Source: Methanosarcina sp. MTP4
Lineage (GTDB): Archaea > Halobacteriota > Methanosarcinia > Methanosarcinales > Methanosarcinaceae
Assembly (NCBI RefSeq): GCF_000970045.1
Contig: NZ_CP009505.1
Location: 4,116,808 to 4,180,807, forward strand
Length of the DNA: 64,000 nt
Direction of reading: 5' to 3'
This document shows positions 56,444 to 62,004 of this stretch, in pieces. Every line of letters begins with the position of its first letter. Within the stretch, counting starts at the first letter, position 1. Both the position numbers and the translations under genes were made by a program. Under the pieces are notes generated by a model. The model made no database searches, had not been told where the DNA came from, and was given only the letters and a program-made list of their open reading frames with translations.

Positions 56444-57375
56444 AAACTGAAGTCTAAATTTTTTATTTTTGTCTTCTACAAACTTTAGTTAGGATTGAAA
56501 CCTAAATTTTGTATATTTGTTTTTATTTTTTTCCTGTTTTCCGGTTTCTTTTGGGATTTTTTGATTTTTAACCCACATGTTTATTTTGGGAATTTTCCAG
56601 AAATTCGTAAAATCTTCTTTAGAAATTTTATATTTGTACTATTTTTTGACTAACTCTTCATTTGAAGTTTCTAAATTTAGGCTGCAGAGACTGTATATTT
56701 AGGCATCATAGACTACATAATTGGAACTTTTCATAAATCTCGTTAAGCACACCGGGGTACAGCTGTGAAATGCAAAAATATGAAACAAATATGAAACAAA
56801 TATGAAACTAAAAATGAGACTAAAAATGAAACTAAAAAATAGGACAATGTTCCCTATGAAAAAAATTCACCACTATTTCAGAGACTATAGGAATTGAGTC
56901 CCAAACTACCAAAACCAGGAAAAGCAAACCCTGAAAGAAAATGAAATAAAAAAAACCTTAAAAAACCTTAAAAAACCTCAAAAACACAAAAAATAGGATT
57001 TAAAAGCCATATTAACAAATTAAATCCCATCAAATTTTTTCCATCCCAAATTATATATTATCTAGTATCTTATTAGTGATATTATTGGGAGTATTATTCT
57101 CTAAAACACGAAAAGTTTCAGATGATTAGGGATTCAATAGGGAGGTAGAGATTAAAAATTAGTATTTGTTTAGTTTGAACTTTCGTGTCTGAAATATGGA
57201 CTCTTTGAAGTAATTTGCCATAAATATTATTTTTTAAAATACATTACGTAGTGGGGGGAGGATTGAAAATTGGCATTTGTCCGGCTTAGGGTATCCTATC
57301 GAAAAATGCTGATTTTTTGAATTCACTTCTACACTATCGATTAAAAATTGTGAGGAGAAAACTGGAAGTGAATAA
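56444..57375. other. Long AT-rich spacer between por and the DUF11 gene
   Basis: No gene is seen in 930 bp. T-rich runs at 56459-56560 may end the por transcript. Short direct repeats (aaatatgaaac at about 56780-56835, aaaaaacctt at about 56950-56985) follow. A cataaatatt (57219-57228) is the best TATA candidate for the downstream gene, and ggaagtga (57363-57370) its ribosome-binding site. Confidence 0.6.
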
Positions 57376-60300
57376 ATGAATAAGAAAATTGCAAATACTG
57401 TGGCAATACCCATGCTATTGCCGACTTTGGTACTGAGAATGGCCAGTGCCACAACGCTAACGAATAGATTGATGAACATACATTGGCGTCTCAGGAAACC
57501 CGATATACGTTCGGCGTTCTTACTGATGCTCTCATTGATGTTGAGCATGACCATTGCGCTGCCTGCAATGCCAGCAGCTTCAGCAGCCTCCGGGGACTTT
57601 TCTATTGACTTTGTAGCAGCATCCCCTGAGTCCTATAACCACCTAACAGGAGGTGGCGCCTATGATAATCGAACCATCGGCGTGGACAAGGATGTCGTAG
57701 AGTCACTTGAAGGCGGTGACTTTGCTTGTGGGGACATTATCACGTTCTTCGCTACCGTCGCAGTAGATAATACCCAATCAGCAATTGATGACGGGCCACA
57801 GACCATCGAAATGAACTTTTCGTTCCTGGCTGATACTACCGGACAGTCAGGTGCAGCCATCGGGGACATCGTGAACGTCAAGGTTAACTACGGCACAATC
57901 GAAGACCTGATCCCCGGTGAAAACGACATTGACGACGGGATAATTGATGACGGGGGAAGTGTGGCAACACTTACAGATGAATACCTAACTGGCCCTCTCT
58001 TCACAGCAGGTTCGGAACTCCACGGTACAGTGGAACTCACTGACCTCGATGCCGGGGAGCAGGTAGTGGTTCGGATAGACGTCAAGCTCTTCTGCCAGCC
58101 TGGCAGTAACCCCACCGGAAACCTGCAGGGAGCTCTTACAGATGCCCGGTTGACTTTTATCCAGGATAGTGTTCCCGTAGAACCTCCAGAGGCCATCCCT
58201 GGTGGTGAACAAACAATTCCCTTCAGGCAGATTGGCGACCTAGAAGCTCCCGAGCTTAATATTCAGAAGACTGTGACTACATCCGACGGCACCTGTCCCG
58301 GCGTGGAATCGCTGACAGTGACCACAGGTGATACGGTCAAGTACTGCTATGTAGTGATCAACACGGGATCTGCTCCACTATATAATTTGAATGTTATTGA
58401 CGACGCAGGCACACCCTCAAATCCAGCCGATGATTTCACTGTCACATTGTCCTCAGGGCTGACTGATATCGATGGGGACGGGACTGCAGACGACCTTGCA
58501 GCAGGAGGTACAGCCACAGGCACGGCACTGGTAACTCTATCCACCGCAGGCACTGCCATCAACACCGCTACAGCCACAGGGGATGACTCCATCATCCAGC
58601 CGACCACGCTGACTGATAATGACACTGCCACCGTGATTGTTGAGTTTGTGCCAAACCCAGCATACACTATAGAAAAGACAGTAACGGATGTAGCGGGACA
58701 GGGACCGGAAGGGAACGTAACTGGTGTGGGAGATGTCATAAGTTACCAGATAAACGTGACCAATGACGGAAACGTTGACATCACAAATGTAACTGTGACG
58801 GATCCATTGCTGGGAACACTGACAGGGCCGACTGGAGACGATGTGGACCCGGGAGTCCTGAACGTAGGAGAGACCTGGACATATACGGGGACCTATACAG
58901 TAACCCAGGAAGACATAAACAACAATGGGAACGGAGACGGATTCATAGATAATACGGCAACAGTGCAATCGGATCAGCTGCAACCGGAAACGGATAGTGA
59001 AAAGGTACCCATAGAAGGAGCACCGGCATACACTATAGAAAAGACAGTAACGGATGTAGCGGGAAAGGGACCGGAAGGGAACGTAACTGGTGTGGGAGAT
59101 GTCATAAGTTACCAGATAAACGTGACCAATGACGGAAACGTTGACATCACAAATGTAACTGTGACGGATCCATTGCTGGGAACACTGACAGGGCCGACTG
59201 GAGACGATGTGGACACGGGAGTCCTGAACGTAGGAGAGACCTGGACATATACGGGGACCTATACAGTAACCCAGGAAGACATAAACAACAATGGGAACGG
59301 AGACGGATTCATAGATAATACGGCAACAGTGCAATCGGATCAGCTGCAACCGGAAACGGATAGTGAAAAGGTACCCATAGAAGAGGAACAGGCACCCATA
59401 GAAGAGGAACCAGCATACACCATCAACAAGACGGTAACGGATGTAGGTGGATAGGGAGCAGAAGCCAGCGTAACAGACGCTGGAGATGTAATAAGCTACC
59501 AGATAACCGTGACCAATGATGGAAATGTTGACCTGACAGGAGTTTCGGTGAAAGATTCACTGATAACACTTACAGGACCTACAGGAGATGACAAGGATCC
59601 AGAAGTCCTGAATGTTGGGGAGATATGGACCTATAAAGGGTGTTACACAGTAACCCAGGAAGACATAAACACAAACGGAGATGGGGACGGCTTCATAGAA
59701 AATACGGCAACAGTGGAATCGGATCAGCTGCAACCGGAAACGGATAGTGAAAAGGTACCCATAGAAGAGGAACAGGCACCCATAGAAGAGGAACCAGCAT
59801 ACACCATCAACAAGACGGTAACGGATGTAGGTGGATAGGGAGCAGAAGCCAGCGTAACAGACGCTGGAGATGTAATAAGCTACCAGATAACCGTGACCAA
59901 TGATGGAAATGTTGACCTGACAGGAGTTTCGGTGAAAGATTCACTGATAACACTTACAGGACCTACAGGAGATGACAAGGATCCAGGAGTCCTGAATGTT
60001 GGGGAGATATGGACCTATAAAGGGTGTTACACAGTAACCCAGGAAGACATAAACACAAACGGAGATGGGGACGGCTTCATAGAAAATACGGCAACAGTGG
60101 AATCGGATCAGCTGCAACCGGAAACGGATAGTGAACAGGTATCCATATAGGGAGCACCTTCATACAGCATTAACAAGACCGTAACAGATGTAGCAGGTCA
60201 GGGACCTGAGGGCTACGTAACAAATGAAGGAGATGTAATAAGCTACAGGATAACTGTGACCAATGACGGAAACATTGACCTGATAGGAGTTTCGGTGAAA

Positions 60301-61734
60301 GATTCACTGATAACAATCACAGGACCTACAGGAGATGACAAGGGTCCGGGAGTCCTGAATGTTGGAGAGATATGGACCTATAAAGGGTGTTACACAGTAA
60401 CCCAGGAAGACATAAACAACAATGGGAACGGAGACGGATTCATAGATAATACGGCAACAGTGGAATCGGATCAGCTGCAACCGGAAACAGATAGTGAAAA
60501 GGTACCCATAGAAGAGGAACAGGCACCCATCGAAGAGGAACCAGCATACACCATCAACAAGACGGTAACGGATGTAGGTGGATAGGGAGCAGAAGCCAGC
60601 GTAACAGACGCTGGAGATGTAATAAGCTACCAGATAACCGTGAACAATGATGGAAATGTTGACCTGACAGGAGTTTCAGTGAAAGATTCACTGATAACAC
60701 TTACAGGACCGGCAGGAGACAATGTAGATCCGGGAGTCCTGAATGTTGGAGAGATATGGACCTATAAAGGGACCTATACCGTGACCCAGGAAGACATAAG
60801 CACTGATGGGGGCGGAGACGGATTCATAGAGAACACGGCAACAGTAAGCAGTAACGAGCTCCCGGATGAAAACAGCTCTGTGGAACAGGCAATTGACATT
60901 AAAGAGACCGATGAAAATACCGCGACTGATGAAAAAGATACGGATTCAGAATCAGACACAATAACTTCTCCGGAAGAGAGTGAAGATGATGATTCCAAGG
61001 ACGGTGATTCCAGAGACAGCGGTAGCAGCCACCGCAGCGCAGGAAGTCGAGGTGTTGGCGGCAGTTCCCCTGAGCCTGCAAAAAACATTGAGGTTAAGGA
61101 ACTTTCGCAGGTCTTCATAGAAAACAGCAACAATGTAGAAATCAATTTCAGAAAGAATGCCACCTGCGTTATGTCTGTTAACTTTGACGCAAAGAAAACT
61201 GCAGGCAAGACCACAACCATCGTCGAGATGCTGAAGGGAAAATCCTCACTGGTTTCCGAAATGCCTACCGACGCAGTTTACAGGTATTTTAATATCTGGA
61301 TTGGAAACAGAGGGTTTGCGACCCCAGAAAATATCGAAAACGCGGTTATATGCTTCAAGGTCGAAAAATCTTGGCTACAGGAAAATGACATCGATGAATC
61401 TTCCATCATCCTTAACAGGTATAATGATGGAAAATGGGACAAGGCTCCAGTCAGCCTGCTAAAGCAAGACGATAAATTCCTGTATTTCACAGCCGAAACT
61501 CCTGGATTCTCTTCCTTTGCAATAACAGGTAAGATGAGAAGCGTTTCGGAAGAAAATTCAAAGAATATACAGCCTGAATCAGAGCCCGAAATGCTTAATG
61601 AAAAAGGTATTGGAAATAAGGGAATGGGAGCTGAACAGGAAGCCGAGCAGGAAGAAAGCACAAGTGCACCTGGATTTGAAATAGTTTACTGTATGACCTG
61701 CCTGCTTGCCCTATTCCTGTATAAAAGAAAGTAA
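57376..61734 (+). CDS. Giant DUF11-repeat surface protein with four in-frame UAG codons
   Basis: One frame of 1453 codons, ending in TAA, broken only by TAG at codons 693, 821, 925 and 1070. Parts in order: a signal region (hydrophobic FLLMLSLMLSMTIAL, then AASA), a beta-rich N-terminal domain (about 65-290), a first DUF11-like unit (about 294-428), six near-identical DUF11 repeats of 121-129 residues (about 430-1180), a Ser/Asp-rich linker, a PGF-pre-PGF domain (about 1237-1390, ending PGFSSFAITGK), and a PGF-CTERM-like tail (APGFE, hydrophobic helix, KRK). Without UAG decoding the product stops at 692 residues and loses its anchor. The start at 57376 has a ribosome-binding site; an ATG at 57472 is the alternative. 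Likely a cell-wall or adhesion protein. Read-through as pyrrolysine is inferred. Confidence 0.75.
59452..59454 (+). other. In-frame UAG codon 1 (residue 693)
   Basis: TAG in DVGG-UAG-GAEASV of repeat 3. Aligned repeats have Gln (CAG) or Lys (AAG). Read as pyrrolysine by inference. Confidence 0.75.
59465..59483 (+). promoter_or_regulatory. Hairpin 10 nt after UAG 1
   Basis: Perfect 7-bp stem ccagcgt/acgctgg with loop aacag, inside the coding sequence. Absent from the TAG-free repeats. Confidence 0.7.
59836..59838 (+). other. In-frame UAG codon 2 (residue 821)
   Basis: TAG at the same place in repeat 4, same context as UAG 1. Confidence 0.75.
59849..59867 (+). promoter_or_regulatory. Hairpin 10 nt after UAG 2
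   Basis: Same ccagcgt/acgctgg stem and aacag loop as after UAG 1. Confidence 0.7.
60148..60150 (+). other. In-frame UAG codon 3 (residue 925)
   Basis: TAG in the linker between repeats 4 and 5 (VSI-UAG-GAP). The matching codon after repeat 1 is GAA (VPI-E-GAP). Not in the repeat-internal position of the other three, and without the hairpin. Confidence 0.7.
60583..60585 (+). other. In-frame UAG codon 4 (residue 1070)
   Basis: TAG at the repeat-internal position in repeat 6, followed by the last DUF11 unit and the C-terminal domains. Confidence 0.75.
60596..60614 (+). promoter_or_regulatory. Hairpin 10 nt after UAG 4
   Basis: Same ccagcgt/acgctgg stem and aacag loop as after UAG 1 and 2. Confidence 0.7.
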
Positions 61735-62004
61735 AACAAGCAAATAAGGAAAAAATAGAGCGAAAGGAATTGAATTAAGAAAAATAATTGGATGAAGGCT
61801 TGATCCCTTCATCTTATTTTTTTTCATTCAGACTTTTGGTTTCTGAATCTTTTTTAGCCTCAACTTCTTTTTACCGGATTTTTAATTTTCAAGTCTGTTT
61901 TTAAGGTTTGATGCCTACTTTTTTGACTATGACCTATTTGTGAACTTTCGGTTTTTTGCTGATAACCGGGGTTACGTGAATGGTGTATTCCGGGCTGTCT
62001 TGTC

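Follow-up and report, generated by a model that had tools for sequence, protein, structure and literature searches.

The gene at positions 57376-61734 of the window (the whole 64,000-nucleotide stretch of Methanosarcina sp. MTP4 DNA analysed here) is probably alive and encodes an exported, anchored surface protein with DUF11 repeats; its UAGs would be partly decoded as pyrrolysine to give a ladder of products. In the proposed mechanism, tRNA-Pyl would compete with the release factor at each UAG. The main or a partial product would be a 692-residue secreted form without the anchor, accompanied by longer forms and by the full-length protein of 1452 residues with its C-terminal anchor and up to four pyrrolysines. 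From the sequence we infer the incorporation of pyrrolysine and how efficient it is, as well as a neutral origin of the TAGs.

A surface-protein frame broken by TAG codons only

Translation of the plus strand at 57376-61734 gives a frame of 1452 residues, and its only breaks are four TAGs, at residues 693, 821, 925 and 1070. There is no TAA, TGA or frameshift before the TAA at 61732, in full agreement with the original prediction of a 4.36-kb frame broken by TAG alone. The encoded protein begins with a signal-like hydrophobic stretch, which is followed by six DUF7507/DUF11 repeats, an acidic linker and a PGF-pre-PGF domain, and it ends in a PGF-CTERM-like tail (Table 1). The repeat domain scores over the cut-off with both PF24346 (137.6 bits, cut-off 27) and PF01345 (56.3 bits, cut-off 24.6), and the PGF-pre-PGF domain matches NCBIfam TIGR04213 over its full length with 205.9 bits against a cut-off of 28. 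For the PGF-CTERM motif, positions 2 to 23 of the 23 in PF18204 are aligned with 17.4 bits, below the curated cut-off of 18.8. The 382 residues past the last TAG (1071-1452) had been predicted to hold a PGF-pre-PGF domain and a PGF-CTERM-like anchor; the profile searches recover both, the anchor as a sub-threshold match, together with a DUF7507 domain. A search for similar DNA in plasmids found none.

Table 1 Features of the surface-protein gene and its surroundings (positions in the window)
Feature	Position	Strand	Remark
Whole frame of the surface-protein gene	57376..61734	+	1452 residues, four in-frame TAGs, TAA at 61732
Hydrophobic N-terminal stretch RSAFLLMLSLMLSMTIALPAMPAASAAS	57508..57591	+	likely Sec signal peptide, inferred from the translation by eye
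DUF7507/DUF11 repeat 1	58660..59025	+	CAG at site
DUF7507/DUF11 repeat 2	59026..59412	+	AAG at site
Repeat 3	59413..59796	+	TAG at site
TAG 1, residue 693	59452..59454	+	sister species also has TAG at the same site
7-bp hairpin	59465..59483	+	begins 13 nt after the first base of TAG 1; significance doubtful
Repeat 4	59797..60159	+	TAG at site; almost identical to repeat 3
TAG 2, residue 821	59836..59838	+	same repeat site as TAG 1
TAG 3, residue 925	60148..60150	+	separate origin; other repeats have Glu (GAA)
Repeat 5	60160..60543	+	CAG at site
Repeat 6	60544..60897	+	TAG at site
TAG 4, residue 1070	60583..60585	+	same repeat site as TAG 1 and TAG 2
PGF-pre-PGF domain (TIGR04213)	61072..61530	+	profile match
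PGF-CTERM-like C-terminal anchor	61669..61731	+	profile match below curated cut-off
Terminator-like hairpin, then T-run	61790..61814	+	just after the TAA; better fold than all 200 shuffles

Repeat duplication reduces the four TAGs to two origins

Residues 693, 821 and 1070 fall on one and the same codon position of the repeat unit, in the context GGA-TAG-GGA-GCA-GAA, and repeats 1, 2 and 5 have CAG, AAG and CAG there. Repeats 3 and 4 match at about 99.7-100% across 300 nt (59386-59685 versus 59770-60069), and repeat 6 shares 87% identity with both. Judged from the repeat alignment, the repeat-site TAGs are three copies of a single site, spread by repeat duplication within the gene. At 60148, the other repeats have GAA (Glu). 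Since the TAGs at 59452, 59836 and 60583 share one repeat site and the TAG at 60148 stands apart, two origins suffice instead of four; of the four pyrrolysines originally predicted, the four TAGs stand, and four independent codons give way to two origins plus duplication. We therefore do not accept the restriction of all breaks to TAG as proof. TAG makes up 37-41% of the one-step nonsense neighbours, and with two independent events the chance that all breaks are TAG is about 0.13-0.17; with four it would be 0.02-0.03. With only two events left after duplication, this pattern is weak evidence, and the case rests on other data.

The repeat-site TAG would have arisen a single time, probably from CAG or AAG, in a tolerant exposed loop, after which duplication or conversion would have carried it into three repeats; the TAG at 60148 would have a separate origin. 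An AlphaFold2 model of repeat 3, with Lys substituted for pyrrolysine (mean pLDDT 86.3), shows a mainly beta domain with the TAG site in a loop between strands 2-11 and 26-35. By its loop position, the site is probably exposed. Related repeats are variable at the loop, and such tolerance fits a neutral gain of TAG. A fold search of solved structures gave no match at E<=0.001.

Decoding machinery and TAG use in the genome

The original prediction depended on pylT, pylS and pylBCD, and all of them are present. A complete pylTSBCD cluster (tRNA-Pyl, pylS, pylB, pylC and pylD) lies about 125 kb upstream of the surface gene on the same chromosome. The pylS match is over its profile cut-off, and tRNA-Pyl, pylB, pylC and pylD adjoin it; pylC and pylD were assigned from sequence and position (pylC between pylB and pylD) rather than by a family search, and PF21360, tried as a pylC marker, had no match in the genome. 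The genome also has two mtmB genes, each containing a single in-frame TAG; one of the two genes lies after the pyl cluster.

TAG is rare as a terminator. By simple ORF calling on 1.22 Mb sampled from the window and other genome stretches, 768 ORFs were called, ending in TGA (409), TAA (341) or TAG (18). Five of the 18 TAG ends are internal TAGs, four in the surface gene and one in mtmB, which leaves TAG terminators in about 13 of 763 called genes (1.7%); the reported values are 4-5% in Methanosarcina and 1.6% in Ca. Methanomethylophilus alvus (PMC4153887). Among stops with an extension of at least 30 codons, coding-like sequence follows directly after four of six TAGs, compared with 14 of 363 TAA or TGA codons. 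One of these four extensions belongs to a probably dead Exo_endo_phos gene (see below), so read-through does not account for all of them.

TAG can apparently still act as a true stop in this genome, for example in pylB. This gene (L052:4921-6096) ends in a TAG within TAGGATGA that overlaps the pylC start region; the site was read in three genomes (G000, G001 and G003), and the pylB match in a fourth (G002) also contains one TAG. We rejected pylB as a read-through gene because of this overlap and because the extension contains a TGA in one of the genomes. The pylB TAG has already been described as a true stop for other Methanosarcina (PMC2933860). An EamA-family transporter gene (L110:8525-9487, minus strand) likewise ends in TAG and is followed by an in-frame, charged extension of 20 residues, a possible further read-through.

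How much full-length protein would be made depends strongly on the efficiency assumed. UAG suppression measured by a reporter in M. acetivorans reached 20-30% only (PMC2933860), a range in which full-length product would stay below 1%; four UAGs read at 25% each would by computation give 0.4%. For methyltransferase genes, UAG read-through of up to 97% is quoted (PMC8211752), at which four UAGs would give about 89%.

The frame past the last TAG is constrained in a sister species

A single close relative was found, in UBA9310, a Methanosarcinaceae MAG (contig DUKH01000085.1, 9992 bases). There the orthologue occupies the same genomic place, preceded by the por genes and followed by the TPR gene. 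The UBA9310 gene is split over two contigs, the assembly breaking in the repeats, with one TAG visible and the others in the gap. In its upstream contig the shared repeat site is also TAG (1 difference in 151 nt), and this contig ends 79 bases after the start of that TAG; its downstream contig begins inside the last repeat, beyond the fourth TAG position. In the first repeat of the UBA9310 gene, the TAG site is Arg. As Q, K and R are all tolerated at this site, no special role for pyrrolysine is indicated.

The original prediction had called for a comparison of orthologues past the TAG, where random stops and frameshifts would speak against it. The UBA9310 gene shows neither in the 330 codons that can be compared past the last TAG, with 0 indels and a dN/dS of 0.24, in this one orthologue and over a short time span; for the segment before the repeats, dN/dS is 0.19. 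The post-TAG changes comprise 14 synonymous and 16 replacement changes, where neutral evolution predicts 8.3 and 22.8 along with 0.8 stops, and in a neutral simulation as many synonymous changes without a stop arise with P=0.012. In the last 230 codons, which cover the domain and the anchor, 8 synonymous changes face 2 replacements (P=0.0007, computed after the positions of the changes had been seen).

The N- and C-terminal parts of the surface gene have a dS of 0.07-0.09, compared with 0.26 for repeat 1 and 0.29-0.37 for the neighbouring porA, porB and TPR genes. The two lineages have probably exchanged the surface gene recently and piece by piece, and the TAG repeat may be among the exchanged pieces. 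Given a recent exchange, the shared TAG and the constraint span less time than the species split. Along the chromosome, window positions 56817-61904 are about 94-97% alike between the two species versus about 81-88% for the flanks. In UBA9310 (G003:C64), about 1.9 kb of additional DNA also separates the end of the surface gene from the match to window position 61887 onwards.

Other in-frame TAG genes of the genus

A PspC membrane protein with a LiaF-like C-terminus (L088:13955-14728, minus strand; G000:C1:363955-364728) has one in-frame TAG. All four genomes of the genus keep both this TAG and the frame behind it, with a protein identity of 76-91%, and in the nearest relatives beyond the genus the frame runs without a stop. 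This is independent evidence that TAG serves as a sense codon of the lineage in proteins other than the methyltransferases, and the PspC-LiaF gene is a cleaner candidate for a sense TAG than the surface protein.

An Exo_endo_phos gene (L068:12283-13053, minus strand) carries TAG at a codon that is AAG (Lys) in the sister species. Homology is lost shortly after this TAG, and we rejected the gene as a second pyrrolysine gene. It is probably dead and provides a useful contrast to the surface gene.

Alternative explanations

It is rather unlikely that the gene was recently broken, in which case TAG would be a stop, only the 692-residue fragment would be made, and the rest would be a young pseudogene with passively duplicated repeats. 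Two TAG events are enough for this, with a chance of about 0.13-0.17 that both are TAG, and the low dS leaves little time for decay; however, a second species carries the repeat-site TAG too, and both species show constraint and no indels past the TAG. The probably dead Exo_endo_phos gene is a case of a decayed TAG gene in the genome, but the genome has the pyl genes, and another protein of the genus apparently uses TAG as sense. That the segment past the last TAG is translated on its own from an internal start seems highly improbable. GTG-start ORFs do follow each TAG, yet all of these GTGs are regular valine codons within the repeats, and the product would begin within a repeat, without a signal peptide but with an extracellular anchor domain.

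Two bolder readings give pyrrolysine a function. In one, which we regard as very unlikely, the TAGs were selected as a sensor of pyrrolysine supply: the 692-residue form would be released without pyrrolysine, and the protein would be anchored with it, during methylamine growth. The position of the TAGs between the secreted repeats and the anchor would suit such a switch, and substrate-regulated reading of UAG is known in Acetohalobium (PMC4153887; PMC8211752), but the pyl genes are constitutively expressed in Methanosarcina (PMC4153887), and sister repeats tolerate Q, K and R, as neutral gain predicts. It is also unlikely that repeat-multiplied pyrrolysines on exposed extracellular loops offer a reactive imine for cross-linking or ligand binding, or that their supply sets the balance of anchored versus released protein.

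Relation to known uses of pyrrolysine

The mechanism is known and the protein is unusual. Describing the gene as a new class of use, as had been proposed, was overstated, since the site tolerates Q, K and R and pyrrolysine outside methylamine use has already been reported, for Thg1, transposases, a TetR regulator and, as predictions, 16 proteins of Ca. M. alvus. Kivenson et al. (Science 2025) have reportedly described an archaeal 'Pyl code' in which all TAG means pyrrolysine; such a code would predict a gene of this kind, but here pylB still ends in TAG. MtmB, MtbB and MttB use the same decoding machinery as proposed here, and two mtmB genes with TAG occur in this genome; their pyrrolysine is catalytic and invariant, whereas the surface-protein site varies between Q, K, R and TAG. 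Proteins of the Methanosarcinaceae combining DUF11/DUF7507, PGF-pre-PGF and PGF-CTERM share the architecture, with many intact paralogues in the genus, and among the matches listed for DUF11/DUF7507 relatives no other TAG lies inside the matched stretch.

The tRNA-His guanylyltransferase Thg1 of M. acetivorans, which likewise plays no part in methylamine use, has an in-frame TAG that can be translated as pyrrolysine and is not essential for activity, a neutral gain (PMC2933860). Thg1 is a cytosolic enzyme with one TAG and has been shown experimentally, whereas the surface protein is a repeated, exported candidate with several TAGs. Ca. M. alvus resembles the present case in its very rare TAG terminators (1.6%), its TAGs inside ordinary genes and the similar line of reasoning (PMC4153887); in the part of its list of predicted pyrrolysine proteins covered here, there is no DUF11 surface protein, and no repeat-amplified TAG is noted.

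If incorporated here, pyrrolysine would extend to an exported surface protein, one recoded codon would have been multiplied through repeat duplication, and the gene would provide a natural multi-UAG reporter for read-through efficiency in a methanogen. The surface gene and the candidate sense TAG of PspC-LiaF jointly make the genus a place to test the extent to which UAG has shifted from stop to sense.

Hairpins near the TAGs and the transcript end

The 7-bp hairpin after TAG 1 has copies after TAG 2 (59849-59867) and TAG 4 (60596-60614), and UBA9310 also has the hairpin; it is absent from the CAG/AAG repeats and at the TAG at 60148. Its z is -3.3, within the top 5% of the gene, and 11% of synonymous recodings fold equally well. 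We rejected it as a PYLIS-like element, given those recodings, a rank only in the top 5%, its absence at 60148 and its copies being of one origin. For pyrrolysine insertion, a cis element has been neither found nor required (PMC8211752).

On the plus strand of the scanned region, no terminator-like hairpin follows any of the TAGs. Terminator-like sites in the scanned region are no more numerous than in shuffles; the sole one on the coding strand, at 61790-61814, is suggestive of a transcript end after the TAA.
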